Of a stretch of DNA of 34,476 nucleotides, positions 3,853-24,166 are shown one piece after another. The notes beneath the pieces were generated by a model. That model saw only the letters and a program-made list of their open reading frames with translations. It ran no database searches and was not told where the DNA came from. The stretch spans positions 1-34,476 of the forward strand of contig CACNWE010000016.1 in NCBI GenBank assembly GCA_902623995.1, read 5' to 3'. The translations under genes and the position numbers were made by a program. Origin of the DNA: an uncultured SAR116 cluster alpha proteobacterium (GTDB taxonomy: Bacteria > Pseudomonadota > Alphaproteobacteria > Puniceispirillales > Marisalimonadaceae). Each line of letters opens with the position of its first letter. The stretch's first letter is position 1.

Positions 3853-5259
3853 ATGAGGGTTATTGTGGAAAGAAAATTATTAGCAGTTGTTGCTGCAGAT
3901 ATGGTCGGGTTTTCAAGATTAATTGAAGATGACGAAATTAATTTACTCTCAAGACAAAAAAATCAATTAAATACAATTATTAAACCAGAAATAGAAAATT
4001 ATAATGGTGAAATAATCAAGACAACTGGAGATGGGTTCTTAGCTATTTTTCCAAGTGCATTGGATGCTGTGCAAAGTAGTGTATCTATTCAAAATGGGAT
4101 TTCTGAAAATGAATTAGAGAAAACAAATGATAAGAAAATTAGATACAGAATTGGAATCCATGTTGGCGATGTGGTTATGGATGATGGAGATATTTTTGGT
4201 AATACAGTGAATATTGCAAGTAGATTAGAGTCAATAGCAGATGCAGGAAATATTTGTATTACAAATGATGTTTATCAAAGTATAAAAAGTTTGAAATCTT
4301 TAATCATAGAAAATATAGGAGAGCAATTCTTAAAAAATATTTCTCAAAAAGTTCAAGTATATAAAATAAATATTTTAGAAGATGATATAAAGCAAATTCA
4401 AGAAAATCATTTGTTAACTGAGGCAAATCAGGAAACAAGATTTTGTAGTTCATCTGATGGAACTATTATTGCTTATGCAAGCATTGGGAATGGACCACCA
4501 ATATTAAAAGCGCCTAATTTTATGAGTAGTCTAGAACATGATTGGAGAAATCCAGTTTGGACCCACATTTACAGGCATTTAGCAAAAGACCATACGTTTT
4601 ACAGGTTTGACCAAAGAGGCAATGGTGTTTCAGATCTTTACCCTGAAAATATAAATTTTGAGTGTTTTGTAGATGATATGCGTGCAGTAGTAGATGCAGC
4701 TAATATTGACAAATTCCCAATATTTGGAGTTTCGCAGGGATGTGCAGTTTCAATAGCTTATGCATATAATAATCCAGAGAAAGTTACTCATTTGATTCTG
4801 TCTGGAGGTTTTGCAAGAGGAAGAGCAAAAAGGGGAACGGCTGATTTTGATCAAAAAATTGAATTAGAAAAAAATATGATTTTAAATGGATGGGAAAATG
4901 AAAATCCTGCATTTAGACAGTTTTTTACATCCACTATGATACCAGATGGCACAAAAGAACAAATGGATGCATTTAATAATGTAATGAAAATTTCTACTTC
5001 TGCAGAAAATGCAGTTAGAATTCAATCCGCTAATGACCAAATAGACGTCTCAGAATTATTACCATTATTAGATATTCCAACTTTAATTTTTCATAATATA
5101 AATGATGCAAGAGTTCCAATTTCAGAAAGTAAATTTATGGCTGCTAATATAAAGAATTCTAAATTTGTTCCATTAAATGGAAACAATCATGTAATCCTTG
5201 AAGGTGATGAGGGTTGGTCTATATTTAAAGAGGAGTTAAAAAACTTCCTTAAACAATAA
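3853..5259 (+). CDS. Class III adenylate/guanylate cyclase fused to alpha/beta hydrolase
   Basis: A 468-residue two-domain protein. Residues 1-175 are a class III nucleotidyl cyclase with all key positions present: metal-binding Asp16 (AADMVGFSRL) and Asp60, base-recognising Lys56 (KTTGDG) and Asp113 (DIFG), and transition-state residues Asn120 and Arg124 (VNIASRLE). It should therefore be an active homodimeric cyclase. Residues 195-468 are an alpha/beta hydrolase with the DQRGNGVSD segment at 253-261, nucleophile elbow GVSQG with Ser294, candidate acid Asp418 and His446. No signal peptide or transmembrane helix is seen, so it is probably cytosolic. The start is uncertain: ATG 3853 lacks a clear Shine-Dalgarno, while GTG 3865 has GAGGG at 3855-3859. 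The gene leads an acyl-CoA dehydrogenase and a CoA ligase. Whether the hydrolase regulates the cyclase or is a catalytic partner is unknown. Confidence 0.9.
   Translation: MRVIVERKLLAVVAADMVGFSRLIEDDEINLLSRQKNQLNTIIKPEIENYNGEIIKTTGDGFLAIFPSALDAVQSSVSIQNGISENELEKTNDKKIRYRIGIHVGDVVMDDGDIFGNTVNIASRLESIADAGNICITNDVYQSIKSLKSLIIENIGEQFLKNISQKVQVYKINILEDDIKQIQENHLLTEANQETRFCSSSDGTIIAYASIGNGPPILKAPNFMSSLEHDWRNPVWTHIYRHLAKDHTFYRFDQRGNGVSDLYPENINFECFVDDMRAVVDAANIDKFPIFGVSQGCAVSIAYAYNNPEKVTHLILSGGFARGRAKRGTADFDQKIELEKNMILNGWENENPAFRQFFTSTMIPDGTKEQMDAFNNVMKISTSAENAVRIQSANDQIDVSELLPLLDIPTLIFHNINDARVPISESKFMAANIKNSKFVPLNGNNHVILEGDEGWSIFKEELKNFLKQ
3855..3859 (+). promoter_or_regulatory. Candidate ribosome binding site pointing to GTG start at 3865
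   Basis: GAGGG lies 5 bases before the in-frame GTG at 3865 and inside the first codons of the longer ATG-start version of the cyclase-hydrolase. It favours the GTG start, which would shorten the protein by four residues without touching any domain. Confidence 0.4.
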
Positions 5260-5288
5260 ACTAATTTTTTTACATAATAGGAAAAAAA

Positions 5289-6440
5289 ATGGATTTTAAT
5301 TTAACAGAAGAACAAATAGCTTTTCAAAACTCCGTTAGAAGTCTTGCAGAGAAATATTTAAAAGAGGGTAATCTTAGACGTGCTCATGATCCATTGTTTC
5401 CAAAAGATATTGCAAAGTTATTTTCTAAAAATGGTTTAATGGGGATAACACTTCCCGAGAAAGATGGAGGGCAGGGAGGTAAGTTAATGGATGCAGTTCT
5501 TGCAATAGAACAAGTTGCATTAATTTGTCCAAGAAGTGCAGACGTAATACAAGCAGGAAGTTTTGGTCCAATAAGAACTTTTGCAGAGTACGCAACTGAT
5601 TACCAAAAAGAAAAATATTTAAAAAAATTGTTAAATGGAGAAATGGTAATTGGTTTAGGTATGACTGAGCCTAATGCTGGATCAGCAGTAACTGATTTAA
5701 CAACTAAAGCTGTTAAAGATGGCAAAGGATTTAGAGTTTCTGGTAGTAAAGTATTTACAAGTAATTCTCCAGATGCAGATATTTTTTTGATTTATGTAAG
5801 ATATCATGAAGGAATAAATGGTATAGGTTCAGTAATAATGGATACATCAATGCCAGGTTTTTCTAAAGGCAAATCTTCAAAATATACTAATGGTGAAGAG
5901 TGGTGTGCTTTATATTTTGATAATGTTTATATTTCTGAAGAAAATGTTTTATTAGGACCTGGTGGATTTAAAAAACAAATTTCAGGATTTAATGCGGAAA
6001 GAATTGGAAACTCTGCTAGATCATTGGCACTTGGTGAGTTCGCTTTTAATGTCGCTAAAGAATATGCTGTAACAAGAGAACAATTCGGAAAGAAAATTTG
6101 TGAATTCCAAGGCATTCAATGGAAGTTTTCAGATATGAAAATTCAAATTGAAGCTGGAAGACTATTATTATACAGAGCTGCAATAAATGCAGATAGAGGG
6201 TTTCCCTCTTCTAAAGAAACATCAATTGCTAAAGCATTTTGTAATAAAGCGGGATTTGAAATAAGTAATGAGGCAATGCAGGTTATGGGTGGTACTGGGT
6301 ATTCACAAGAAACATTGGTTGAATATTGCTTCAGAAAATCTAGAGGATGGCAAATTGCAGGTGGATCAACTGAAATGATGAAAAATAGAATAGCCGAAGA
6401 TATCTTTGAAAGGAGATTTTCACAAAGGCTAAATAAATGA
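5289..6440 (+). CDS. Acyl-CoA dehydrogenase family protein
   Basis: A 383-residue FAD-dependent enzyme that introduces an alpha-beta double bond into an acyl-CoA. The family layout is clear: helical N-domain, the FAD/substrate segment MTEPNAGS at 125-132, a middle beta domain with GSKVFTSN at 152-159, and a C-terminal helical domain with REQFGKKI at 263-270 and QVMGGTGYSQE at 331-341. The medium/short-chain catalytic Glu position (YEGT in those enzymes) is occupied by Gly358 (IAGGST). The alternative catalytic Glu of the isovaleryl/long-chain type appears to be Glu237 (NAERIG). The ribosome binding site TAGGA precedes ATG 5289. It sits 29 bases after the cyclase-hydrolase and 10 bases before the CoA ligase, so the three look like an operon. 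The substrate chain is not predictable. Confidence 0.92.
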   Translation: MDFNLTEEQIAFQNSVRSLAEKYLKEGNLRRAHDPLFPKDIAKLFSKNGLMGITLPEKDGGQGGKLMDAVLAIEQVALICPRSADVIQAGSFGPIRTFAEYATDYQKEKYLKKLLNGEMVIGLGMTEPNAGSAVTDLTTKAVKDGKGFRVSGSKVFTSNSPDADIFLIYVRYHEGINGIGSVIMDTSMPGFSKGKSSKYTNGEEWCALYFDNVYISEENVLLGPGGFKKQISGFNAERIGNSARSLALGEFAFNVAKEYAVTREQFGKKICEFQGIQWKFSDMKIQIEAGRLLLYRAAINADRGFPSSKETSIAKAFCNKAGFEISNEAMQVMGGTGYSQETLVEYCFRKSRGWQIAGGSTEMMKNRIAEDIFERRFSQRLNK

Positions 6441-6450
6441 TCTTTTAATT

Positions 6451-8535
6451 ATGATAGATGTTTCTTTATTCCAATCTTTTTTAAAACCAAAATCAGTTGC
6501 AATAATAGGTGCTTCTGCTGACCCAAAAAAAACTAGTTCACGTGCACAAAGGTTTCTTGTATCGCATGGTTATAAAGGAAAAATATTTCCTGTAAATCCA
6601 AACAGGAGAAAAATTTTTGGATTAAAATGTTATCCAAATTTAAAATCAATTAATGAATATATTGATCATATCTTTATTGCTATTGATGGTAATAAAATTA
6701 TTGAAGTAATTAAAGATGCTATATCAAAAAAAGTTAGATGCGCTACAATTCTATCTGGAGGATTCAGTGAATCTGGGTATGAAGGTAATGATTTAGAAAA
6801 ACATGTTTTTAAAATAGCAAAAGAAGGTGATTTAAGAATATTAGGGCCAAATAGTATTGGTCTTATAAATATCTCAGATAATGTTATTTTAAGTGCAAAT
6901 GCTATGCTCGAATTACAAGATTTAAAGAACGGAAGTCTTAGTGTAATTTCCCATAGCGGGAGTCTTATTGGAGCCTTATTGGCTCACGGCCACTCGCGTG
7001 GTATAGGTTTTTCAAAGTTGGTTTCTGTTGGAAATGAGTCGGATCTCTCCGTTGGAGAAATTGGTAAAATGCTAGTTAATGATCCAAATACTCAAACCAT
7101 AATATTATTTTTAGAAACATTAAGAAACAGTGATGAAATAGCAGAGATGTCTAGAATGGCACATGCAGCTGGAAAACAAATTATCTGTTACAAACTTGGA
7201 AAGTCTGAATTAGGTAAAGAATTAGTCAAATCTCACACAGGAGCAATTGCAGGAAATGATGATGCATTCAATGCATTCATAAATCATCATGGTATTGCTA
7301 GAGTAGAAATTTTTGAAACATTAATTGAAATTCCTAATTTATTTAAAAATAAGAAAAAATCTAAATCTAAACGAGTAGGTATTATTACTACAACTGGTGG
7401 TGGAGGTGCTATGGTTGTAGAAAACTTATCAGGCAGTGATATTGAAATAATAGACCCTGGACTATCAATACAGAAATTTATGCAAGACAATAAAATTCCA
7501 TTTAACAACAATAAATTAGTTGATTTAACTATTGCTGGAACAAAACCTGAAATTGTTAGCGAAGTAATTAGTCTAATGATGAAAAATAAAAATATCGATT
7601 TAGTTGTGATGGTAGTTGGTTCCTCTGCTAAATTTAGACCAGAGCAAGCAGTTGAGCCTCTATTAAAATGGGCAAATTACCCAAAACCGTTAGCTGTGTA
7701 TATTGCCCCTGATGCTCCAGAAGCACTAAATTTATTACATCAAAATAATATTGCTTGTTTTAGAACGCCCGAGTCTTGTGCGGAGAGCGTGAAGACTTTT
7801 TTAAATACTAAAAATCCAGTCAAACCAATAATTTTAAAAAATGACTTAAGTGACATTTCAAAAAAATTAAAGAAAAACATATTCAAGAATTTATCTGAAG
7901 AAGAAGCATTAGAAATATTAAAAGATATAGGGATTGAAATTGTAGATTACAAAGTAAGTTCCAACGAAAAACAAGCAATAGAATACAGTTCCCAAATAGG
8001 TTTTCCTCTTGCAATGAAAGTTTTATCAAGTGAGATAATGCATAAAACAGAAACTGGAGGTGTTGAATTAAATATAAAAAATTTAGAAGAGGTGAAAATT
8101 AGTTTTAAAAAGTTATCAAATGTATTTCAGAAATTAAAAATAAATAGTAGTGAAAAAAAATTTATTATTCAAAAAATGGAAAAAGGAATTGCAGAAATAA
8201 TTTTAGGTTACAGAGTTGACGAATTAGTTGGACCAATTGTTGTAATAGGTTCAGGTGGTATTTTATCAGAGATATATAATGACAAATCAATAAGGATGGC
8301 ACCAGTTGATGTCACAGAGGCAAAAAAAATGATTAAGGAAGTTAAAAGTCTTGTGACTATAACTGGATATAGAGGACTTCCCGAAGTTGATATAAATATT
8401 ATTGCTACTGCAATAGTGAATATATCTAAATTTGCTTTAGTCAAAGAAATTAAAGAGGCTGAAATTAATCCAGTTATAGTAAAAAAAAATAATGAAGGAA
8501 TTGTAGCGGTAGACGGTCTAATTACTTTAAAATGA
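6451..8535 (+). CDS. ADP-forming acyl-CoA synthetase (acetate--CoA ligase family)
   Basis: A 694-residue single-chain NDP-forming CoA ligase that interconverts acyl-CoA and acid plus CoA with ATP, through a phosphohistidine. Domains in order: CoA-binding Rossmann domain (SVAIIGAS near 16-23), two succinyl-CoA-ligase-like domains (about 150-460) with the phospho-acceptor His262 in SHTGAIAG, and a C-terminal ATP-grasp_5 domain (about 480-690) with the HKTETGGVELN segment around His531. This alpha-beta fused order is normal for the bacterial family, which also includes the GNAT-linked Pat proteins, but no acetyltransferase domain is present here. Placed directly after an acyl-CoA dehydrogenase, it probably activates an acid for oxidation or recovers energy from its CoA thioester. 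The substrate is unknown. No convincing Shine-Dalgarno precedes ATG 6451. Confidence 0.92.
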   Translation: MIDVSLFQSFLKPKSVAIIGASADPKKTSSRAQRFLVSHGYKGKIFPVNPNRRKIFGLKCYPNLKSINEYIDHIFIAIDGNKIIEVIKDAISKKVRCATILSGGFSESGYEGNDLEKHVFKIAKEGDLRILGPNSIGLINISDNVILSANAMLELQDLKNGSLSVISHSGSLIGALLAHGHSRGIGFSKLVSVGNESDLSVGEIGKMLVNDPNTQTIILFLETLRNSDEIAEMSRMAHAAGKQIICYKLGKSELGKELVKSHTGAIAGNDDAFNAFINHHGIARVEIFETLIEIPNLFKNKKKSKSKRVGIITTTGGGGAMVVENLSGSDIEIIDPGLSIQKFMQDNKIPFNNNKLVDLTIAGTKPEIVSEVISLMMKNKNIDLVVMVVGSSAKFRPEQAVEPLLKWANYPKPLAVYIAPDAPEALNLLHQNNIACFRTPESCAESVKTFLNTKNPVKPIILKNDLSDISKKLKKNIFKNLSEEEALEILKDIGIEIVDYKVSSNEKQAIEYSSQIGFPLAMKVLSSEIMHKTETGGVELNIKNLEEVKISFKKLSNVFQKLKINSSEKKFIIQKMEKGIAEIILGYRVDELVGPIVVIGSGGILSEIYNDKSIRMAPVDVTEAKKMIKEVKSLVTITGYRGLPEVDINIIATAIVNISKFALVKEIKEAEINPVIVKKNNEGIVAVDGLITLK

Positions 8536-8573
8536 TATTTTTTTAAGCAATTACATCTAAAATTAAAAATATA

Positions 8574-8601
8574 TTTACATGTTAAAGAATTTTTTTATCA
8601 T
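8574..8601 (+). promoter_or_regulatory. Predicted sigma70-type promoter for the signalling module
   Basis: TTTACA (8574-8579) and TATCAT (8596-8601) are spaced by 16 bases, each one mismatch from consensus. They lie in the 89-base gap before the MBL hydrolase gene and would give a leader of about 17 bases. AT-rich sequence makes chance matches common, so this is a prediction only. Confidence 0.4.
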
Positions 8602-8624
8602 AGACTAATTACAATGAGTTTTGA

Positions 8625-9407
8625 ATGATTATAAATCATGGGGTAAGAGGATCAACACCAAATCCAAGTCAAAATTTTTTATTTTTTGGCGGTAATACTC
8701 CTTGTGTAGAAATTAAAACTCAAAAATATCAACTGATTTTTGATTGCGGTTCAGGGTTTTCAAAAGTTAATTTTTATAACGAACTTGAAACTATATTATT
8801 TATTTCGCATTTCCATCATGATCATATACAAGGATTAGCTTTTAATAATTATGATATTAACAATAGTAAAAAAATTACTATAACATCAGCTCATTCTAAC
8901 AAAACTGATACCTATAACAATTTAAGTGCTTATTATAGTAATCCTTATTTTCCCGTAAAGTTTATCGAAATTATTAATAGATTTAATTTTTTGGATTTTG
9001 AACAAGTTGTAAATAATTTTGAAGATTTAAATATCAATTCAATTGATCTCAATCATCCCGGAAATTGCTCTGGGTATAGCATTATAAGTAATAAAAAAAA
9101 GTTTTGTTATTTATTGGATAATGAATATGAAGATATTCAAGAAGAAAAATTAATTGATTTTTGTGATCAGTCAGAAACTATTATCTGGGATGGAATGTTC
9201 TTAGACAGTGAGCTTTTAGATAAAAAAGGTTGGGGGCATTCTAGCATTGAACAGGGCATTAATTTTTCAGATAAAATTGATGTCAAAAACTTCCTTATTT
9301 CGCATCATTCACCGTCTAGAGACGATAAAGAAATAAAAAATATAGAAAAAAAAATATTAAACAAGAAAGTAAAATTTGCATCTGAAAATGAGGTAATAGA
9401 GTTCTAA
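8625..9407 (+). CDS. Metallo-beta-lactamase-fold hydrolase
   Basis: A 260-residue MBL-fold protein. The N-terminus has the subfamily pattern RGSTP (8-12), GGNTPCVEI (22-30) and IFDCGSGF (38-45), and then the metal-binding HxHxDH motif as His62, His64, Asp66 and His67 followed by IQG. Later candidate ligands are the His in LNHPGNCSG, the Asp of LLDNEYED, the His in WGHSS and SHHSPSRDD. This branch contains uncharacterised hydrolases and is related to class II-type cyclic-nucleotide phosphodiesterases; a phosphodiesterase role is inference from the neighbours (cyclic-nucleotide-binding protein and cyclase). The stop overlaps the next start (TAATG). A five-codon reading frame (MSFE, 8614-8628) overlaps the start codon and may be a coupling leader or chance. 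No signal peptide, so cytosolic. Confidence 0.85.
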   Translation: MIINHGVRGSTPNPSQNFLFFGGNTPCVEIKTQKYQLIFDCGSGFSKVNFYNELETILFISHFHHDHIQGLAFNNYDINNSKKITITSAHSNKTDTYNNLSAYYSNPYFPVKFIEIINRFNFLDFEQVVNNFEDLNINSIDLNHPGNCSGYSIISNKKKFCYLLDNEYEDIQEEKLIDFCDQSETIIWDGMFLDSELLDKKGWGHSSIEQGINFSDKIDVKNFLISHHSPSRDDKEIKNIEKKILNKKVKFASENEVIEF

Positions 9408-9745
9408 TGGAAAAGACTAAGTATAATGAAAATCAAAGTGTTTTTAAAGTAGGAGAACTACCTGACAAAATGTATTTATTAGTCAAAGGTTCTGTAGGTA
9501 TTTTTCTTCCAACAAACGAAACTAAAAAACCTAATTTTATAATTCAAGAAAACGAACTTTTTGGTGAAATGGGTGTAATAGAAAACGAATTAAGGATGGC
9601 CACAGCAAGGTGTTTAGTAGAAAGTGAAATCATCTCAATTACCAAAGACGAATTTGATAAAAGAGTTAATGCTTCTGATGTATTTGTAAAAGGATGCTTA
9701 AAAGCATTGTCATACAGATTAAGGTCGGTTGAAAAAAAAATGTAA
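9407..9745 (+). CDS. Stand-alone cyclic-nucleotide-binding domain protein
   Basis: A 112-residue protein consisting only of a Crp/PKA-type cyclic-nucleotide-binding beta-barrel, with no DNA-binding helix-turn-helix and no other effector domain. The early strand pair shows the family pattern FKVGELPDKMYLLVKGSVGIF (13-33). The phosphate-binding cassette is intact in its key residues: FGEMGVI with Glu54 (ribose 2'-OH contact) and Arg63 in LRMATA (cyclic phosphate contact). It should therefore still bind cAMP or cGMP. The ATG overlaps the preceding stop by one base, and the giant histidine kinase begins 24 bases downstream. A single-domain sensor of this sort probably acts by protein-protein contact, possibly with the MBL hydrolase or the kinase; that is inference. 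Confidence 0.88.
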   Translation: MEKTKYNENQSVFKVGELPDKMYLLVKGSVGIFLPTNETKKPNFIIQENELFGEMGVIENELRMATARCLVESEIISITKDEFDKRVNASDVFVKGCLKALSYRLRSVEKKM

Positions 9746-9769
9746 GAAGAAGTTTGAGGAGTTTTATAA

Positions 9770-12700
9770 ATGGAAATTAATATCAAATTAGCTGAAAGTT
9801 TAATAGATGCATTTGATAGTGAAGAAACTGGTATAGTACTTTGGGATGCAAATGATAATATTGCTTACAGAAATAAAAATATTTCTGAAAGATTTATAAA
9901 GTTAAATATAGACTTTGAAGTTGGACAAAATTTTTTTGATAGAATTAAATTAATCAAAAAAAACAAGATAATTTCTTTAGAAGAAGTAAATATTCGTCAA
10001 AAAAACTACGTTACAGCAAAAAATACAGGAAAACCTCAACAATTTGTAATCAAAGGACCTACTGGTAGATGGGTGCAAATAAAAGACACTCCAACATCCG
10101 AAGGTAATATGTTAACATTAATGACTAATGTTACTGAAATTGTTGAGCAAGATCTTGAAAGAAAAAGATTAGCTAATGCAATAGAAAATGTACCCCTTAT
10201 AATACAATATTGGGATGAAAATGATAAATTAATTTTTGCAAATGCAAAGGCTGATGAATTACATGAACAATGGGAAGTTAATTGCAAATTTACAAAAGGT
10301 TTAGCATATGAAGATATGGTAAGAGCGCAGCTTTCAAGCTCAATATTTAAAATTCCTGAAGGAGAAACAATAGAAAGTGAAATAAAAAGAAGAAAAAATT
10401 ATAGAAAAAAAGTTTCGTCAAATTATAGGGAAGTTTATTTAGAAAATGGTAAAACTTGGTATGTAATTGATAAGAGATTAGATGATGGCTCTTTTTTAAG
10501 TATATTTAGTGAAATTACTGATATTAAAAATAAAGAAGCTCAATATAAACAATTAGCAGACGCATTAGATAATCTACCTATGCCAATGTTATTTTGGGAT
10601 AAAGAAGACAAATTAATTACATCAAATAAAAGATCTCGAGAATTTCAAGGAAAATGGAAAATAAAACTTGAAGATGGGATGTCATGGGAGTCAATGTTTA
10701 AAAAACAAATTAATGCAGGTGTCTATGTTATTCCAGAAAATAAAAGTATTAAAGATTTTACAAAGGAAAGATCAAATTTTAGAGCTGAATTAATTCAAGA
10801 TAGAAAAAGAGAAACACTTTTATCAGACGGCACTACTTTTTTTAGTAACGAAATACGTCTTGAAGATGGTTCAATGCTTAGTGTTTTTACAGACATTTCA
10901 GAGATAAAAGAACGTGAAAAATCACTAAAATTACTAAACGATGCTATTGAAATTATTCCTAATAATATGATGCTTTGGGACAAAAATAATAAATTAATAA
11001 TGGCTAATGCTAAAGCTAGAGATGACAATGCATCAAGAGGATTTAATCTAAAAAAAGGGGCATCACGATTAGAAATGGTCAAAAATGCCCTAAAAAAAGG
11101 TTTTTTGTCTGCGCCAAAAGGGGTTTCTCAAAAAGAATTTCTTGAAATGAGAAAAAAGCAATTTGAATCTTTAAAGAATCAGGAAGCTTATGAAGTGATT
11201 ATGAATAATAAATTTTATTTATTATCGTCATCTAGATTGCCAGATGGTTCAACGTTACAATTTGCAACTGATATAAATGATACAAAGAAACAAGAAGAAG
11301 AATTAGTAAGATTTAAAGATGGAATAGATCTATTACCAAACGGTTTAATGTTTTGGGATGCAGAGGATAATTTAATTGCTCATAATGCCAGTGCAGTTGC
11401 ATTCTTAAAAGATTTTAAATTTGATTTGAAAATTGGAAAATCAAGGGAAAAACTAAGAGAGCACATGATTTTAAATGGTTATGTTTCAGTACCTAAAGGT
11501 GTTAACAAAAAAGAAGTTTTTGAAAAATATAAAAAAGATTGGAAAAATTTAGTAGGCACAAGGACAAGGAGCAATAATTTTTCAAATGGAAAAACACTTC
11601 TTTTTACGGATACAAGATTACAAGATGGAAGTACTATTTCATTATGGACTGATATTACAGATTCTAGAAAACAAGAGGCAGAGCTTTTACGCTTGAAGGA
11701 TGGAATTGAAACACTTCCGAATGGTTTGATGTTTTGGGACGAAAATGATGATTTAATTGCCTTTAATAAAAGTTCACAAAAATTAACTGAATATTATGGT
11801 TTAAAACTCAAAATTGGAATGAATTTTAGCGAATTAAGAAAACACATGGTTCTAAATCACCAAAAACCACCCAAAGGAATAAGCATAAAACAACATTTTA
11901 AAAATAGAGAACAAGCATGGAAAAATCTAAAGGGGCAAAATATTAGAGAATCAAATTTTACAGATCATACTCTACATTTTACAGATACTAGATTAGAAGA
12001 TGGCAGTACAATTTGCCTATGGACAGATATAACCGATCTAAAAAAGCAAGAAAATGAGCTTTTAAGACTTAGAGATGCTATCGATATTTTGCCAAATGGT
12101 TTGTTTTTTTGGGATGAAAACAATAAATTAATAGCAACTAATAAATCTGCTATTGACCATTTAAAAGAATTTGGATTTGATTTGCGTCTAGGAGTTGACA
12201 GGTTTGATCATGTAAATCATCTGGTAGATCATAATTATAACGTTTTACAAAGTGGATTAGATAAAAAAACCCATATTAAACGTATGAAAGAAAGTTGGAA
12301 CAACTTTACTGGTCAACGAACAAGAGAAACAAAATTTTCAAACGGGTTATCTTTTCTTTTTACTGATACGAGACTAAATGATGGAAGTACAATCTCATTA
12401 TGGTCTGACATTACTAAAATAAGGCAAGTAGCAGACAGTCAAAAACAATTAATTGATGCAATTGATGTAATGCCTAACAGTATTTCTTTATGGAACAAAG
12501 ATAATAAATTGATAATGGCAAACAAGACATCAATTAATGACATGAAAAAACTGAATTTTGACTTAAAGCCGGGTATTTCAAGAATGTCGATGGTAAGAAA
12601 TGGCGTTAAACTTGGTTTATTTCCGATTCCAAAAGGAATTACCAGAAAAGCATTTTATAAAATGAAACAAAAAGAATATGAAGACTTAAAGGATGAAAAA

Positions 12701-15700
12701 AGAGATGAATTAGAACTAAATAATGGAAGCTTTGTTTTAAATATTACTAAAAGGCTACCCGATGGGGGAACTCTCCAAAATAGTATCAATATCACGGAAA
12801 TAAAAAAAGGAGAAAAATCATTAAAACAACTTCGTGATTCTATAGAAATTATACCGAATATGTTAATGTTGTGGGATAAAGATAATCATTTGATTATGGC
12901 AAATAAGGAAGCTAGAAACATACAAAAGAAAATGGGTTTTGATCTTAAACCTGGTGTCTCTAGGTGGGATATGTTGGATGCAGGTCTTAAATCTGGTTGT
13001 ATAGATACACCTGATGATACTTCACCAGCAGAGTGGATAAAAAACAGAAAAAAAGCAATGGTAAGTTTAACCACTCAAGAGAAGGTAGAAAGTGTTATAA
13101 ATCTTAAAAAGAAAAAGATAGTTATTTTAGGGACATCTACAAGACTTAATGATGGTGGAACATTACAAATTTGGACAGATATTTCAGAAATTAGAGAAAA
13201 AGAAAGACAAGTTGCTGAAAGTCAAAGAAAAGTAAGAGAAGCAGAAGAAAAAATATCTAATGCAATTAATAGTATGCCACACGGAATAACCATGTGGGAT
13301 AAAGATATGAAATTAGTGAGGATAAATGATTTCGGAAATAGAATCTGGAAAAAAGGTAAGATAAATTTGAAAGCGGGTTCTAGTTATGAAGATTACATGC
13401 GTCAATCAAAGAAAAATAAATTTCTAATTTTTGATAAAAAGTCTGATGAAATTGATTATTATAAAAATGCGGTAGAAAGAAGAAAAAAATTTAAAGGTGT
13501 TTTTACTACGGAAACACCTCCATTCTATGATGGATCAATTTGGCAATCAACTTCTACTAGACTACCTGATGGTGGAGTGTTTTCTATTTTGTCGAACATA
13601 ACTGACATTAAAAATAGGGAAGCTTCTTTGAAACAGCTAAGTGATGCAATAGAGGTCACACCAAATGCAATTTTACTTTGGGATAAAGATCATAAATTAG
13701 TTGTAGGTAATAAAACAGCAAGAGATGTTCAAAAAGATCTTAATTTTGACTTAAAACCTGGAATTTTAAGAAAAGACATGATTAATAACGTTGAAAAAAA
13801 AGGTTTAGTTGCTATTCCAGAAGGAATGTCAGCTGATGAATTTTATTCTCAAAGGAGAGTGGCTACAAAATCATCTAAAAACCACATGTATGAGTTGGCG
13901 TTTACAAATGGTACTACATGGTTAGTAAGTGATACAAAGTTACCTGATGGAGGTTTTTTGCAAGTTTATTCTGATATTTCAGAAATGAAAGAAAAAGATA
14001 AAGAAATAAAATTAGCACAAGATCAAATTAGAGAAACCGAAAAAAGAATGACCGATGCATTAAATAGCATGCCACATGGAATTTCTTTATGGAATAAAGA
14101 TGATACTTTAGCAATGAGAAATACACTGGCTTTTGATATTCATAAAGGAGCTGGCATAGATACTTATCAACCAGGTATTTCATATAAAGAACAAACAGAG
14201 GCGTGGGAAAAGTATGATTTTTTTGATTTTGATAACCAAGAACAAAAAAAGAAGTTTTTTAAATCAATTAAAGATAGCCGAAAAGATTTGAAAGGATCAA
14301 TGACAGTTGAAACCCCAAGATTTTATAATGGAACTTATTGGCAAGCTACATATAGACGTCTAGATGATGGTGGAGTTTTTACAATATTTTCTGATATAAC
14401 TGAACTTAAAACACGTGAAGAAGAATTAAATAAAACAATTAAGGAATTAGATATAGCAAGGGAAAAAGCAGATGCTGCCAACCAGACTAAAAGTCAATTT
14501 CTTGCAAACATGAGTCATGAATTAAGAACACCTTTAAATGCCATAATAGGTCTAACAGAGATGTTAAAAGAAGATGCTGCAGATGATGGCTTAGACGATT
14601 TTGAAGAGCCACTTGATAGAGTTTTTAATGCAGGTAAACATCTTTTAACACTAATAAACGATGTATTAGATTTATCAAAAATTGAAGCAGGAAGAGTTGA
14701 ATTATTTAATGAAACATTTGAGCTAAAACAAATTTTGGATGATGTTATTAAAACTTCATTACCATTAGCTCAAAAAAATGAAAATGAATTAATTATTGAT
14801 TATAAAACAGAGATTGATTTTGTTACTGCTGACCAAACTAGGGTTAAACAGGTTGTTTTGAATTTAATTTCTAATGCTTGCAAATTTACTGAAAAAGGTA
14901 AAATAACTGTTGGAGTAAACAAAATTTTACGTGAAGGTGGTGACCTAATTTCGATAGATGTAAGTGATACTGGTATTGGTATGTCAGACGAGCAAATGTC
15001 TAGATTGTTTAATTCATTTGTCCAGGCTGATAGTTCAACAACAAGAAAATATGGTGGAACAGGTTTAGGACTTACTATTTCAAAACAGCTTGCAATATTA
15101 ATGGGTGGTGATGTTATAGTAAATAGTGAGTTAGGAAAAGGTACAACTTTTACTGCAACATTTCTAGCAGACTTCATTGGTGCATCTGAAAGTGTAAAAA
15201 ATTTACAACAAAAAACTGGTTCTTTAATTGAAAATGTCATTACTTTGGAAAACAATACGGGAAAGACAATTTTAATAATTGACGATGACCCAACTGTAAG
15301 TGAATTAATGAAACGACAATTGTTAAAAGAAGGATATAAGGTAGTTATTGCACCAAATGGAAAAGATGGGATTAGCTTAGCACGTGATCTTAAACCTGAT
15401 GTTATTACTTTAGATATTCTGATGCCTGAAATGGACGGGTGGTCAGTTCTACGTACTTTAAAAGCTGACCCTGAAGTTTCTAATATTCCTGTAATTATGG
15501 CTTCAATATTAGATGAGAAAAATAAAGGATTTTCTTTGGGTGCTGCAGATTTTTTATCAAAACCTATCCAAAAAGAATATCTAATGAAATCAATAAGAAA
15601 TTTAATAGGTGATAAAGAAAATCTTAAAATTTGCCTTATTGAAGATGATGAAAGTTTAAGATTTACAGTTAAAGAAATTCTTGAAAAACAAAATGTTCAA

Positions 15701-16018
15701 ATTATTGAGGCAGAAAACGGCAAAGTTGGAATGAATATTTTACAGAATGAAGAAATAAAACCTGATTTAATTTTGTTAGATTTGATGATGCCGGTAATGA
15801 ATGGTTTTGAATTTTTAAAAGCTATAAGAGAAACTGAATTAAATTCAATTCCAATTTTAGTTTTGACTGGAGCAGAATTAAGTGAAGATGAAAAGAAATT
15901 CTTGTCAGGGGAAACACAAAGAATACTCGAAAAAAGTGAAGATACAATGTCTACAATCGTTAATGAGGTAAGTAATGTTATTAAGGCTTCTTCATTTAAA
16001 AATGGAGATAACAAATGA
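9770..16018 (+). CDS. Giant soluble hybrid histidine kinase: 12 PAS, HisKA, HATPase, two REC
   Basis: A 2082-residue cytosolic hybrid kinase with no transmembrane segment or signal peptide. Twelve PAS_7-like domains fill residues 10 to about 1550; their central Trp of the (L/F)W(D/N) motif falls at 25, 148, 276, 403, 529, 656, 781, 908, 1035, 1176, 1304 and 1441. Then come HisKA with phospho-acceptor His1583 (NMSHELRTP), an HATPase with N-box near Asn1698-1702 (NLISNACKF), G1 box Asp1733 (DTGIGM) and G2 box from Gly1762 (GGTGLGL), receiver 1 with Asp1882 (LDILMPEMDG, SKP lysine) and receiver 2 with Asp2004 (LDLMMPVMNG). All catalytic residues are present, so it should autophosphorylate. GAGGAG at 9756-9761 is a strong ribosome binding site. 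The stop overlaps the next ATG (ATGA). No Hpt domain is seen here. The signal sensed by the PAS domains is unknown. Confidence 0.95.
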   Translation: MEINIKLAESLIDAFDSEETGIVLWDANDNIAYRNKNISERFIKLNIDFEVGQNFFDRIKLIKKNKIISLEEVNIRQKNYVTAKNTGKPQQFVIKGPTGRWVQIKDTPTSEGNMLTLMTNVTEIVEQDLERKRLANAIENVPLIIQYWDENDKLIFANAKADELHEQWEVNCKFTKGLAYEDMVRAQLSSSIFKIPEGETIESEIKRRKNYRKKVSSNYREVYLENGKTWYVIDKRLDDGSFLSIFSEITDIKNKEAQYKQLADALDNLPMPMLFWDKEDKLITSNKRSREFQGKWKIKLEDGMSWESMFKKQINAGVYVIPENKSIKDFTKERSNFRAELIQDRKRETLLSDGTTFFSNEIRLEDGSMLSVFTDISEIKEREKSLKLLNDAIEIIPNNMMLWDKNNKLIMANAKARDDNASRGFNLKKGASRLEMVKNALKKGFLSAPKGVSQKEFLEMRKKQFESLKNQEAYEVIMNNKFYLLSSSRLPDGSTLQFATDINDTKKQEEELVRFKDGIDLLPNGLMFWDAEDNLIAHNASAVAFLKDFKFDLKIGKSREKLREHMILNGYVSVPKGVNKKEVFEKYKKDWKNLVGTRTRSNNFSNGKTLLFTDTRLQDGSTISLWTDITDSRKQEAELLRLKDGIETLPNGLMFWDENDDLIAFNKSSQKLTEYYGLKLKIGMNFSELRKHMVLNHQKPPKGISIKQHFKNREQAWKNLKGQNIRESNFTDHTLHFTDTRLEDGSTICLWTDITDLKKQENELLRLRDAIDILPNGLFFWDENNKLIATNKSAIDHLKEFGFDLRLGVDRFDHVNHLVDHNYNVLQSGLDKKTHIKRMKESWNNFTGQRTRETKFSNGLSFLFTDTRLNDGSTISLWSDITKIRQVADSQKQLIDAIDVMPNSISLWNKDNKLIMANKTSINDMKKLNFDLKPGISRMSMVRNGVKLGLFPIPKGITRKAFYKMKQKEYEDLKDEKRDELELNNGSFVLNITKRLPDGGTLQNSINITEIKKGEKSLKQLRDSIEIIPNMLMLWDKDNHLIMANKEARNIQKKMGFDLKPGVSRWDMLDAGLKSGCIDTPDDTSPAEWIKNRKKAMVSLTTQEKVESVINLKKKKIVILGTSTRLNDGGTLQIWTDISEIREKERQVAESQRKVREAEEKISNAINSMPHGITMWDKDMKLVRINDFGNRIWKKGKINLKAGSSYEDYMRQSKKNKFLIFDKKSDEIDYYKNAVERRKKFKGVFTTETPPFYDGSIWQSTSTRLPDGGVFSILSNITDIKNREASLKQLSDAIEVTPNAILLWDKDHKLVVGNKTARDVQKDLNFDLKPGILRKDMINNVEKKGLVAIPEGMSADEFYSQRRVATKSSKNHMYELAFTNGTTWLVSDTKLPDGGFLQVYSDISEMKEKDKEIKLAQDQIRETEKRMTDALNSMPHGISLWNKDDTLAMRNTLAFDIHKGAGIDTYQPGISYKEQTEAWEKYDFFDFDNQEQKKKFFKSIKDSRKDLKGSMTVETPRFYNGTYWQATYRRLDDGGVFTIFSDITELKTREEELNKTIKELDIAREKADAANQTKSQFLANMSHELRTPLNAIIGLTEMLKEDAADDGLDDFEEPLDRVFNAGKHLLTLINDVLDLSKIEAGRVELFNETFELKQILDDVIKTSLPLAQKNENELIIDYKTEIDFVTADQTRVKQVVLNLISNACKFTEKGKITVGVNKILREGGDLISIDVSDTGIGMSDEQMSRLFNSFVQADSSTTRKYGGTGLGLTISKQLAILMGGDVIVNSELGKGTTFTATFLADFIGASESVKNLQQKTGSLIENVITLENNTGKTILIIDDDPTVSELMKRQLLKEGYKVVIAPNGKDGISLARDLKPDVITLDILMPEMDGWSVLRTLKADPEVSNIPVIMASILDEKNKGFSLGAADFLSKPIQKEYLMKSIRNLIGDKENLKICLIEDDESLRFTVKEILEKQNVQIIEAENGKVGMNILQNEEIKPDLILLDLMMPVMNGFEFLKAIRETELNSIPILVLTGAELSEDEKKFLSGETQRILEKSEDTMSTIVNEVSNVIKASSFKNGDNK
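9797..14425 (+). repeat. Twelve-fold tandem PAS array inside the hybrid kinase gene
   Basis: Each unit begins with a helix of the form L-x-x-A-I-x-x-x-P-N, then (L/F)W(D/N)-K-D/E-x-x-L-I-x-x-N, and ends with R-L-x-D-G-x-x-L/I-x-x-x-(T/S)DI(T/S). Spacing of the marker Trp is 123, 128, 127, 126, 127, 125, 127, 127, 141, 128 and 137 residues. The two longer intervals contain charged coiled-coil linkers (before units 10 and 12). Units fall into groups by sequence: 3/4/8/9/11, 5/6/7 and 10/12; units 1 and 2 are the most divergent. Confidence 0.93.
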
Positions 16019-16389
16019 CAAAGATTTTATATGTAGAAGACAACGAAGACAATGTTTATATGTTATCAAGACGTTTAAAAAGGAAAGGTTTTGAAATAGT
16101 TATTGCTGTTGACGGAGAACAGGGTGTTGAAATGGCATCTTCAGAAAAACCAGATCTTATATTAATGGACTTAAGTTTGCCTAAAATGGATGGATGGACT
16201 GCAACCAAACACATTAAAAGTAATGATAAGCTTAAATCAATTCCTATAATTGCTCTATCAGCACATGCAATGGAAGAACATAAACAAAGAGCACTTGATA
16301 GTGGATGTAATGATTATGATACAAAACCAGTAGATATCGATAGGCTATTATCTAAAATATCAGAGCAATTAGGTACTAAAAATGATTAA
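16015..16389 (+). CDS. Single-domain response regulator (DivK-like receiver)
   Basis: A 124-residue stand-alone receiver domain. The acidic pair is Glu8-Asp9 (YVEDNEDN), the phospho-acceptor Asp52 (LMDLSLPKMDGW), the switch Ser82 (ALSAHA) and conserved Lys104 (TKPVD). The YVEDNEDN start and LSAHAM segment match the DivK/phosphorelay-type single receivers of alphaproteobacteria. There is no output domain, so it probably shuttles phosphate or acts by binding a partner. Its ATG overlaps the stop of the kinase gene as ATGA, with GGAG just upstream, and its own end overlaps the next gene by 8 bases. It should be a direct partner of the hybrid kinase. Confidence 0.93.
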   Translation: MTKILYVEDNEDNVYMLSRRLKRKGFEIVIAVDGEQGVEMASSEKPDLILMDLSLPKMDGWTATKHIKSNDKLKSIPIIALSAHAMEEHKQRALDSGCNDYDTKPVDIDRLLSKISEQLGTKND

Positions 16390-17422
16390 CAAAGAGGATG
16401 CAAATATACTAATTGTTGATGATATTGAAGATAATAGATATACGCTTGAAAGAAGATTAAAAAGAGATGGTTATAAAAATATCTTCCTAGCTGAGGGTGG
16501 TAAAACAGCTCTAGATATGGCTACGAAAAACAAATTTGATTTAATACTTTTAGATCTTATGATGCCAGATATGAGTGGTCTTGAGGTTCTTAAATATCTA
16601 AAAGGTGATCCTCTACAAAGATCTATTCCTGTCATTATGGTTACAGCTTCTGATGAAGTGGAAACGGCTGCAGAATGCATCATCAATGGTGCCGATGATT
16701 TCATTACTAAACCTTTCAATGGAACTTTGCTCAAAGCAAGAGTTGGAGCAAGTCTAGAGAAAAAAAGATTAAGAGACACTGAAGAAAGTTATTTAGATAG
16801 AGTTGAAACAGACAAAAAACGATCACAACAAATATTGAAAACTGTTATGCCTACCTCTGTAGCTAATGAACTTCAGTCATCTGGAAAAGTTAGGTCTAGA
16901 AGATATGATGACGTGGCAATTTTAATATGTGATTTAGTTGGCTTTACATCATTTTGTGAAAAAAATGACCCAGAATTAGTTGTTGAAACATTGCAGGGTC
17001 TTGTAGAAAATTTTGAAAAAGCCTTTGAAGATTTTGGCTTAGAGAAAATTAAAACAGTTGGAGATGCTATTGTTGCAGTTGCAGGGTTATCTTCACACGC
17101 CATTTCTCCTGTTAAATCTTGTGTAGATTGTTCTTACAAATTAAGGGAGATTGCAAATACGTCATCAATGCCTTGGAATCTCCACCTTGGAATACACTCT
17201 GGTTCTCTTGTTGCTGGAACAGTTGGGACAAAAACAGTGCAATTTGATATTTTGGGAAAAACAGTAAATATGGCATTTAATATATGTGATATGTCTGACT
17301 CAAATCAAATTCTTATTTCTAGCGATGCTTGGATGACAGCAAGAAATGAAATTAAAGTAAAATCAATTGGATTAAAAAGATTAAAGAGTGGCCAAGACAT
17401 TGAAATGTTAGAATGCGTTTAG
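16382..17422 (+). CDS. Response regulator with class III nucleotidyl cyclase output
   Basis: A 346-residue protein with an N-terminal receiver (acidic Asp13-Asp14, phospho-acceptor Asp58 in LLDLMMPDMSG, Lys in TKPFN), a charged helical linker at about 125-165 that includes the cyclase-transducing ILKTVMP segment, and a C-terminal class III cyclase domain (about 175-346). Metal Asp184 (ICDLVGFTSF) and Asp228, base-recognising Lys224 (KTVGDA) and Asp289 (FDILG) and Asn296 are present. The position of the catalytic Arg (N-x-A-x-R) holds Asn300 (VNMAFN), verified at the codon AAT 17279-17281. Activity may therefore be reduced or altered. The gene overlaps the preceding receiver by 8 bases and ends two bases before a convergent gene. 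It looks like the output of the phosphorelay, making cAMP or cGMP, or acting as a cyclase-like regulator. Confidence 0.92.
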   Translation: MINKEDANILIVDDIEDNRYTLERRLKRDGYKNIFLAEGGKTALDMATKNKFDLILLDLMMPDMSGLEVLKYLKGDPLQRSIPVIMVTASDEVETAAECIINGADDFITKPFNGTLLKARVGASLEKKRLRDTEESYLDRVETDKKRSQQILKTVMPTSVANELQSSGKVRSRRYDDVAILICDLVGFTSFCEKNDPELVVETLQGLVENFEKAFEDFGLEKIKTVGDAIVAVAGLSSHAISPVKSCVDCSYKLREIANTSSMPWNLHLGIHSGSLVAGTVGTKTVQFDILGKTVNMAFNICDMSDSNQILISSDAWMTARNEIKVKSIGLKRLKSGQDIEMLECV

Positions 17423-23167: not shown

Positions 23168-24166
23168 ATGCGAGATTGGGATACAAGAATAAATACTCTT
23201 AAATCTGATATTCAAGCTGCGCGTGAAAAGTATGTTATTCCTTTCATGAAAGCTAAACCTAAACCTGCTCCTCCTCAAAAAGAAGTATCTCAAACTCCTT
23301 CTCAAACTCCTGAAGAAAATAAAGTTGAAACTTCAGCGGAAGCTACAACTGAAAAATTATATGAGAATAAAGACCCAACATCTTCTCTTGATTTAATAGA
23401 TAAAACTAATGAAGCAAGAAATGAAACTAACTTAGGTTTAACAGAAGAGATAACAAATAAAATTGATAGTGCATTGGAACAAACTAAGCCTGAAGAAGAG
23501 GCTCCAACAGTTAATGTAGAAGAAGCTGTTGCGTCTGCGGAAGAAGCTCCAACAGGTAATGTTGAAGAAGCTGTTGCGTCTGCAGAAGAGGCTCCAACAG
23601 TCAATGTTGAAGAAGCTGTTGCGTCTGCAGAAGAAGCTCCAATAGTTAATGTTGAAGAAGCAATTGCATCTATAGAAGAGGCTCCAACAGTCAATGTTGA
23701 AGAAGCTGTTTCATCTGGAGAAGAAGCTCCAACAGCTAATGTTGAAGAAGCTGTTGCTTCTGCAGAAGAGGCTCCAAAAGTCAATGTTGAAGAAGCTGTT
23801 TCATCTGGAGAAGAAGCTCCAACAGCTAATGTTGAAGAAGCTGTTGCGTCTGCAGAAGAGGTTCAAAAATTAGAAGAAATAAAAGTTAATGATGAAAATA
23901 TAGAAGAAAAAGAGGATGGCTTTGATAAAAACCAAAATCAAAAATCTGAGCTTGAGCTTCTAGAGGAAAGAGATGAGAACAGTCTCACCGAAGAAGAAGA
24001 AGATAGAATGTATGAATTAAGAAGGTTAAGAGCACAAAAGAGAATTAATGATGAAGTGAGAGAAGATGAACAAGCAGAATTCAAAAAAGCTGACGAAGAA
24101 ATTGCTCATTTAAAAACATTGTTAAAGCCTAAGAAGAAAAAGTTACCAAAGGGATATGTAGAATAA
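23168..24166 (+). CDS. Acidic protein with eight 15-residue tandem repeats
   Basis: A 332-residue protein I do not recognise. Residues 1-30 (MRDWDTRINTLKSDIQAARE and on) look like an amphipathic helix, followed by a Pro/Lys-rich stretch. Residues 110-229 are eight copies of a 15-residue unit, consensus EEAPTVNVEEAVASA, which is very acidic and without aromatic residues. The remaining C-terminal 100 residues are highly charged and predicted helical (LELLEERDENSLTEEEEDRMYELRRLRAQKR is the most coil-like part), ending in a Lys-rich tail (KPKKKKLPKGY). There is no signal peptide or membrane segment, so it is probably cytosolic, perhaps a scaffold or spacer. AGGA 7 bases before ATG 23168 supports the start. 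It ends 8 bases before a convergent thermonuclease. Confidence 0.8.
   Translation: MRDWDTRINTLKSDIQAAREKYVIPFMKAKPKPAPPQKEVSQTPSQTPEENKVETSAEATTEKLYENKDPTSSLDLIDKTNEARNETNLGLTEEITNKIDSALEQTKPEEEAPTVNVEEAVASAEEAPTGNVEEAVASAEEAPTVNVEEAVASAEEAPIVNVEEAIASIEEAPTVNVEEAVSSGEEAPTANVEEAVASAEEAPKVNVEEAVSSGEEAPTANVEEAVASAEEVQKLEEIKVNDENIEEKEDGFDKNQNQKSELELLEERDENSLTEEEEDRMYELRRLRAQKRINDEVREDEQAEFKKADEEIAHLKTLLKPKKKKLPKGYVE
23495..23854 (+). repeat. Eight tandem 45-bp coding repeats
   Basis: Eight in-frame 45-bp units with no indels, each starting GAAGA(G/A)GCTCC. The unit endings run SA, SA, SA, SI, SG, SA, SG, SA. Units 5-6 and 7-8 match each other over 90 bp with only two visible base differences, which indicates a recent 90-bp duplication. 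Confidence 0.97.

Follow-up and report, generated by a model that had tools for sequence, protein, structure and literature searches.

The 34,476-nucleotide stretch of DNA analyzed here (hereafter the window; contig CACNWE010000016.1 of GenBank assembly GCA_902623995.1) is one contig of the 2.08 Mb genome of an uncultured SAR116 cluster alphaproteobacterium, whose closest named relatives are SAR116 genomes including SCGC AAA015-N04 and AAA536-G10. It carries five consecutive genes on one strand that encode a metallo-beta-lactamase (MBL) fold hydrolase, a lone cyclic-nucleotide-binding domain (CNB), a hybrid histidine kinase with a long array of PAS units, a lone receiver, and a receiver fused to a class III cyclase homologue. 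This locus is composed of two modules, an MBL-CNB pair and a kinase/receiver/receiver-cyclase trio, such that the gene neighborhood is real but modular. In addition, the cyclase carries Asn in place of a transition-state Arg, and the PAS array is a mosaic that is best explained by recombination replacing cassettes and blocks of cassettes.

A preliminary description of the locus had portrayed the five genes as a self-contained circuit in which the kinase controls nucleotide synthesis by the cyclase, the CNB reads the product, and the MBL enzyme removes it. The arrangement that it reported is confirmed by the open reading frame coordinates (Table 1), with a 1-base TAATG overlap between the MBL and CNB genes, a 24-base gap before the kinase gene, a 4-base ATGA overlap between kinase and receiver, and an 8-base overlap between receiver and cyclase. 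Likewise, the Pfam listing of the five proteins contains neither an Hpt domain nor a DNA-binding domain, as it had claimed. Three characteristics of the DNA were absent from that description, namely the Arg-less cyclase, a longer same-strand run that begins with another cyclase gene upstream, and the recombining PAS array.

Table 1. Features of the window, with coordinates and supporting domain matches (aa, amino acids).
Feature	Coordinates	Strand	Domain or profile
MBL-fold hydrolase, RNase Z / atypical class-II phosphodiesterase group, 260 aa	8625..9407	+	PF12706 (Lactamase_B_2)
Lone CNB, 112 aa, likely MBL regulatory partner	9407..9745	+	PF00027 (cNMP_binding)
Hybrid histidine kinase, probably soluble, 2082 aa	9770..16018	+	Pfam: 10 PAS_7 stretches, HisKA, HATPase_c, 2 Response_reg
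PAS cassette array, 12 units, kinase residues 8-1542	9791..14395	+	Profile from the window's own units
Lone receiver, 124 aa	16015..16389	+	PF00072 (Response_reg)
Receiver-class III cyclase homologue, 346 aa, Asn at transition-state Arg position	16382..17422	+	PF00072 + PF00211 (Guanylate_cyc)
AAT codon of Asn300, at transition-state Arg position	17279..17281	+	
Class III cyclase fused to alpha/beta hydrolase, 468 aa, Arg-bearing, first gene of same-strand run	3853..5259	+	PF00211 + PF00561

Two modules adjoin in one locus

Our comparisons drew on 101 genomes (the window's own and 100 relatives) and on a named collection made up of the best 80 of 117 relatives, which is the scope of all counts below that are taken over 80, 65, 47, or 33 loci. 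The window's family is represented in this collection by 33 loci (L168-L200), defined by an MBL identity of at least 48%. An MBL match was found in 32 further genomes of the family, and loci were fetched from 28 of them; the other four genomes are G003 and G036, where contig ends intervene, G029, in which the gene order is permuted (locus L188), and G056, where, as in G052, the trio cyclase and the pair are on different contigs.

All five genes occur in identical order in 22 of the 28 fetched family loci, including one (L072) whose kinase is split into two frames. Of the remainder, four (L086, L092, L093, and L096) have the pair and no trio, L094 has broken frames, and L095 is cut by a contig end. 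Across the 101 genomes, the MBL gene is found in 52 and the CNB in 51 (paralogues and fragments among them), and a trio-type cyclase, scored above 300 bits, is present in 36, every one of which belongs to the window's family. Among the 33 family loci of the named collection, 25 have the trio cyclase, three are cut by contig ends, and five lack it despite continuing sequence, which leaves the pair without an adjoining trio there, as is also the case at each of the 32 paired non-family loci. Conservation of the neighborhood, which had been set beforehand as a test of the circuit, holds within the family; outside it, the trio cyclase is seen in none of 47 loci. Moreover, G030, a genome rated 100% complete that is the source of L086, keeps the pair and gives no trio-cyclase match at E <= 1e-20. 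The order in L188 is kinase, receiver, receiver-cyclase, MBL, and CNB, so that the pair is downstream of the trio and still adjacent to it, and the two modules therefore adjoin in two different arrangements.

The kinase has the H-box ANMSHELRTPLN, an HATPase_c domain, and receivers, in the gene order expected of such a trio, and it is probably soluble because its peak hydropathy is only 1.43 over 19 residues. Trios with matching gene order, a receiver of 122-125 amino acids, and a receiver-cyclase of 347-357 amino acids are found in four loci from other orders (L149, L151, L155, and L157), whose lone receivers are 59-66% identical to that of the window. No MBL or CNB of the window's kind is present in the fetched stretches of these four loci. 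The trio in L155, from another alphaproteobacterial family, includes a kinase of 1994 amino acids (positions 4408-10392), suggesting that long sensor regions may have evolved more than once.

The receiver-cyclase lacks a transition-state arginine

Most features expected of an active class III cyclase are evident in the receiver-cyclase. The protein matches PF00211, and the residues that we take to be its two metal-binding Asp residues and its Lys/Asp adenine-specifying pair (D184, D228, K222, and D289) are invariant in 10 cyclase sequences, with Asn296 also kept. Asp58 and Lys110 of its receiver are invariant as well (10/10). In contrast, the Asn-Arg transition-state pair is incomplete, because alignment with the C2 half of mammalian AC8 (VNLASRM) locates a change from Arg to Asn300. 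The resulting AFNICD sequence is found in all 30 family loci that could be read, window included (36 loci were found), and Asn is likewise present in L089-L091 and in 24 of the 25 trio cyclases of the named collection, the last of which (L191) has N bases at this site. All 10 homologues from outside the family, which came from nine of 385 class genomes searched, keep the Arg within VNxAxR. An AlphaFold model of the receiver-cyclase was not used, as its predicted local distance difference test score (pLDDT) is 64.8 overall and below 50 for residues 275-308, which include Asn300.

Two measurements speak to the history of this protein. First, the median ratio of nonsynonymous to synonymous substitution rates (dN/dS) in the window's subclade is 0.024 for the cyclase, compared to 0.015 for the CNB (52 usable pairs), 0.032 for the lone receiver, 0.052 for the kinase core, and 0.117 for the MBL. 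Second, when three family trios were compared with four outside trios, divergence on the family stem proved greatest in the cyclase catalytic domain (36% identity family-to-outside versus 52% outside-to-outside). It is intermediate in the cyclase's own receiver (53% versus 65%) and the kinase receivers (42% versus 51%), and lowest in the kinase core (53% versus 58%) and lone receiver (61% versus 62%). Strong constraint within the subclade combined with a large divergence on the stem suggests that the function has changed, not that the gene is decaying.

Both residues of the Asn-Arg pair were reportedly found to be essential by Yan and colleagues in 1997. Most class III cyclases have the pair, but Ma1120 is described as a class III enzyme that naturally lacks the Asn and yet is active (PMC4215837). 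Losing one residue of the pair is therefore no proof of inactivity, and this precedent cautions against our view that the trio cyclase, judging from its sequence, may make little cyclic AMP (cAMP). Another source (PMC2447327) yielded nothing useful on the transition-state Arg question.

These findings bear directly on the five-gene circuit, wherein the kinase would phosphorylate Asp58, the receiver-cyclase would make cAMP, the CNB would read it, and the MBL would remove it. Its support comes from the gene order kept in most fetched family loci, the adjacency of pair and trio in two arrangements, and a strongly constrained cyclase domain that retains both metal Asp residues, the Lys/Asp pair, and Asn296. 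However, the catalytic Arg is missing from every readable family locus, 19 of the 33 family loci have an Arg-bearing cyclase upstream that could be a source of nucleotide instead, and the pair stands without an adjoining trio both within the family, including in G030, rated 100% complete, and throughout the paired loci outside it. Because the two modules separate, we reject the self-contained circuit as it was stated, and consider a five-gene circuit of this kind to be unlikely.

The MBL-CNB pair has features of a cyclic-nucleotide phosphodiesterase

Atypical class-II cyclic-nucleotide phosphodiesterases are characterized by the motif [T/S]HXHXDH and by a PF12706 MBL fold near RNase Z (PMC9293780). 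The sequence SHFHHDH at residues 61-67 of the window MBL fits this motif. Residues H62, H64, D66, H67, H144, D165, H205, and H227 are invariant in 32 aligned sequences, and S61 is nearly so. The protein scores 36.4 bits with PF12706 (cut-off 27), which all 17 members of the set designated A2 match at E <= 0.01, and its AlphaFold model has a pLDDT of 94.6. It also has motifs of its own, GVRGS...YGGNT and DNE/WDGM/WGHSS. By motif and fold, the MBL resembles these phosphodiesterases, which supports the likeness proposed in the preliminary description and suggests a predicted activity of the same type.

Some comparisons pull the other way. Foldseek searches with the MBL model place ELAC1 (a tRNase Z) at the top, followed by YhfI, BA1088, and RNase Z, with Apyc1 and yeast PDE1 lower; PhnP is likewise among the nearest matches. 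The protein is under every curated NCBIfam cut-off listed, and it scores higher with RNase Z models (74.7 bits for TIGR02651, cut-off 292.95) than with the phosphodiesterase model NF041851 (21.6 bits, cut-off 400). The RNase Z models match all 17 members, the phosphodiesterase model 14. Together with the conservation of the CNB partner, these results would fit an RNase Z-like or PhnP-like enzyme that processes RNA or other phosphodiesters and is gated by the CNB, with the cyclic nucleotide serving as signal rather than as substrate. We regard such an enzyme as quite improbable, and on the basis of the motif, the fold, and the gene context and Dictyostelium precedent discussed below we prefer to read the pair as a split cyclic-nucleotide phosphodiesterase.

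The CNB, as noted previously, keeps Glu54 and Arg63 of its phosphate-binding cassette, and both are unchanged in all 39 sequences aligned, that of the window among them. Bd1971 is among its best matches in the PDB. A lone CNB is encoded within 150 bp of the MBL on the same strand in 65 of 80 loci, namely every one of the 33 family loci and 32 of the 47 others (some titled Rhodobacteraceae). Furthermore, an adjacent CNB, a class III cyclase no more than 6 kb away, or the two together are present in 46 of the 47 outside loci, the sole exception being L222. A class III cyclase is within this distance in 25 of the 47, and the 40 cyclases in 469 kb correspond to 0.85 per 10 kb, versus 0.043 per 10 kb across the window's genome, although this comparison mixes genomes and thresholds and its rows are related by descent. 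(With a different model and threshold, 102 cyclase matches were counted in 43 genomes from the remaining families of the order.) Nine of the neighboring cyclases have varied architectures, including AC-TPR, Fer2-AC, HAMP-AC, GAF-PAS-AC, and short AC proteins (AC, adenylate cyclase). A control set of 15 loci from other orders, representing the wider MBL family, has no CNB and one cyclase.

Phylogenetic analysis points in the same direction. In a 64-row MBL tree, the CNB label requires four changes versus 19.9 when shuffled and is thus clustered, and a 54-row branch with support of 100/100 excludes 10 control rows, although the program flags long branches there. The clade that includes this MBL is linked through its gene context to CNBs and class III cyclases.

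Several points weaken the functional reading of this association. A cyclase is nearby in only 11 of the 32 CNB-paired outside loci, versus 14 of the 15 unpaired ones. Several of the 15 control loci were chosen because they had long reading frames rather than at random, and the gene-context counts are phylogenetically non-independent. The CNB label changes at least twice on the MBL tree, and so a single origin of the pair does not follow. Finally, none of five long-frame MBL candidates checked (L248-L252) is an MBL-CNB fusion; as these lack a CNB, we dropped the idea of a fusion that would serve as a Rosetta stone for the pair.

A literature search found nothing on an operon joining a cyclic nucleotide-binding domain, a metallo-beta-lactamase, and an adenylate cyclase. 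Two of the control MBLs (L158, 3111-4337; L159, 5628-6878) are receiver-MBL fusions from other alphaproteobacteria, indicating that the wider MBL family also acts as response-regulator output. Four loci titled Pelagibacteraceae, SAR324, Gammaproteobacteria, and Euryarchaeota (L191, L227, L230, and L242, respectively) encode close relatives of the SAR116 and Rhodobacteraceae MBLs, and are probably misbinned metagenome contigs.

Mosaic structure of the PAS array

A profile derived from the PAS units of the window confirms that its kinase has 12 of them, as claimed previously. Arrays range from 6 to 12 units, both in the family and in the window's genus, and the median identity between units of one protein is 28%. 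When units are clustered at 65% identity, each array can be written as a string of cassettes. The window (EILGaAJBNCFM) is closely matched by L075 (EILGaAJBNCUM) and L072 (EILGAJBNCFO), and parts of these strings recur in L069 (KHGAPQBDTFO), L070 (KHGAPQBDCFM), and L073 (EVNCFS).

Individual pairs of genomes reveal abrupt changes in similarity along the array. Units 1-8 of L069 and L070 are 97-100% identical, and units 9-11 are only 48-77% identical. Those same last three units of L069 match L077 at a synonymous divergence (dS) of at most 0.02, in a pair whose units 3-6 are 47-77% identical. Between the window and L069, the flank, MBL, and cyclase have dS values of 0.01-0.14, the kinase core and receiver 0.28-0.29, and the CNB together with the first and last PAS units 0.86-1.13. 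The relationship is reversed between L082 and L070, where units 2-8 have a dS of 0.13-0.29, near the level of the flanks (0.39 and 0.29), and values for the MBL, CNB, kinase core, receiver, and cyclase span 0.87-2.15; it is these parts, and not the middle of the array, that are divergent in this pair.

To place these examples in context, we compared 19 genomes (171 pairs), defining as close the 42 pairs whose two flanks have a mean dS below 0.3 and counting saturated dS as high. L094, whose kinase and MBL frames are split, was left out, as were L087-L091 (other genera) from the close-pair test; L086, L092, L093, and L096 have no kinase, and L072 is represented by the main piece of its kinase. 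Among close pairs, dS exceeds 0.7 in the first unit in 28, in the last unit in 34, and in at least one of these in 40. A unit of at least 95% identity and another of at most 65% coexist within 29 of the 171 pairs (15 of the 42 close ones), and unit number differs in 20 of the 42. We also found 67 reciprocal triples, with 14 of the 19 genomes as centre. Overall, dS leaps from below 0.2 to above 1 along the length of one protein, and a given unit may be near-identical in one comparison yet look unrelated in the next.

Over 66 pairs from the window's subclade, median dS is 0.28 and 0.30 for the upstream and downstream flanks, 0.50 for the MBL, 1.10 for the CNB, 1.21 and 1.17 for the first and last PAS units, 0.60 for the kinase core, 0.40 for the receiver, and 0.63 for the cyclase. 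Thus, dS is raised over the whole locus and peaks in the CNB and the array. The elevated value of the cyclase, beyond the array, fits less well with exchange centered on PAS cassettes. The CNB protein itself is 94-100% identical in the subclade despite its high dS, as if swapped along with the PAS array.

Recombination replacing cassettes and blocks best explains this mosaicism. Assembly error or a chimera from amplification may account for individual genes, but collapse during assembly is unlikely, because the same cassettes occur in separate assemblies, alleles differ at dS above 1, and units within one protein share so little identity. Fast evolution of the units without recombination, to which the median dN/dS of the PAS units might point (0.23 for the first and 0.29 for the last, versus 0.015-0.18 in the other parts measured), is very hard to reconcile with the leaps in dS within single proteins, the pair-dependent similarity of units, the reciprocal triples, and the differences in unit number, and we give it almost no weight. 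A literature search returned no paper on a PAS domain in SAR116 and, by title and start of abstract, none concerning such PAS arrays or mosaic kinases.

Genes upstream and elsewhere in the window

The first gene of the longer same-strand run encodes a class III cyclase that keeps the transition-state Arg (VNIASRL). It does not keep the adenine-specifying Lys, whose position we take to be in the sequence EIIKTTGD. Two more genes on this strand, separated by short gaps, precede the MBL gene (5289-6440 and 6451-8535) and presumably encode acyl-CoA dehydrogenase-like and acyl-CoA synthetase-like proteins. The genes in 3853-8535 may be co-transcribed with the five genes. Among the 19 family loci with an Arg-bearing cyclase-hydrolase upstream of the MBL, 18 (including the trio-less L186) have it at approximately 3.31-3.39 kb, and L187 has it at 45 bp. 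Of the 14 family loci without it, five hold less than 5 kb upstream, and its absence from nine of the 28 loci holding at least 5 kb argues against a general role for this gene as the nucleotide source. Farther away, at 23168-24166, a 332-amino-acid open reading frame contains 8.2 copies of a 45-base repeat (EEAPTVNVEEAVASA-like) at 23490-23859 with 86% matches.

A model for the locus and its known counterparts

The explanation for the whole locus that we favor, on which our own confidence is evenly balanced, holds that two joined modules form a split phosphodiesterase and a phosphorelay with an Arg-less cyclase, the latter subject to cassette swapping. The MBL and CNB would together constitute a two-chain phosphodiesterase in which the nucleotide-bound CNB contacts and activates the MBL, and hydrolysis by the activated enzyme would cap the level of cyclic nucleotides. 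The second module would be an alphaproteobacterial phosphorelay whose PAS cassettes sense internal ligands or redox state, and whose kinase would pass phosphate to the receivers it carries, to the lone receiver, and to the cyclase at Asp58. Given the lost Arg, the cyclase is probably mainly a phosphorylation-controlled nucleotide-binding regulator, or else a very weak cyclase, and nucleotide would be supplied by Arg-bearing cyclases such as that at 3853-5259. Homologous recombination would swap PAS cassettes and blocks between strains, so that input changes while the output protein sequences stay conserved. Within this picture, the gene structure, its conservation, the loss of the Arg, the mosaicism, and the association by gene context are demonstrated, whereas every activity, the contact of MBL with CNB, the route of phosphotransfer, and any selective reason for the mosaicism are inferred.

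A more speculative extension, which we put forward tentatively and think doubtful as a whole, is that SAR116 populations share a pool of PAS cassettes, which homologous recombination shuffles in a single giant soluble kinase. The array would then resemble a combinatorial receptor locus on which diversifying or balancing selection acts. The output would remain conserved, and the phosphorylated pseudo-cyclase would regulate the split, cyclic-nucleotide-activated phosphodiesterase instead of making nucleotide. Cassette exchange is better known for surface antigens and toxins. If the proposed explanation is true, such exchange would diversify an intracellular sensor in a free-living bacterium of the ocean, and recombination could drive the evolution of a two-component system's input while its output stays fixed. 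Moreover, the MBL-CNB pair would be a bacterial split counterpart of the Dictyostelium cyclic-nucleotide-activated MBL phosphodiesterase, and a two-gene marker of cyclic nucleotide signaling in marine alphaproteobacteria (SAR116 and Rhodobacteraceae).

Each part of this locus is of a known kind. Two things are new here. The most unusual is the PAS array with its recombining cassettes; the other is the association of a probable split phosphodiesterase with a cyclase that lacks the Arg and is nonetheless conserved. The trios of L149, L151, L155, and L157 resemble that of the window in gene order and receiver lengths, but their group of outside homologues has Arg where the window's cyclase has Asn, and their fetched stretches contain no MBL or CNB of this kind. 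The window MBL shares the PF12706 fold and the [T/S]HXHXDH motif with the atypical class-II phosphodiesterases Rv1339, YhfI, and Corynebacterium CpdA, and YhfI is among its top Foldseek matches; it differs from them in its own motifs, its CNB partner, and an identity of only 16-18% to YhfI.

Closest in design are Dictyostelium GbpA and GbpB, which PMC11988041 describes as an MBL-fold part followed by CNBs, with hydrolysis activated by cyclic nucleotide binding. Like these proteins, the window has an MBL catalytic part with a downstream cyclic-nucleotide-binding domain. However, GbpA and GbpB are single chains with two CNBs, whereas the window has two genes overlapping by one base and a single CNB, and the likeness is one of design rather than a result of sequence comparison. 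We accordingly read the pair as a putative split form of this design. Rhs-type and other genes with a conserved core and an exchangeable tip similarly combine a conserved part with a displaced variable part (PMC2935791). The window's array is distinct from these in belonging to a cytosolic sensor, in exchanging units and blocks inside the coding sequence, and in feeding a conserved kinase output.

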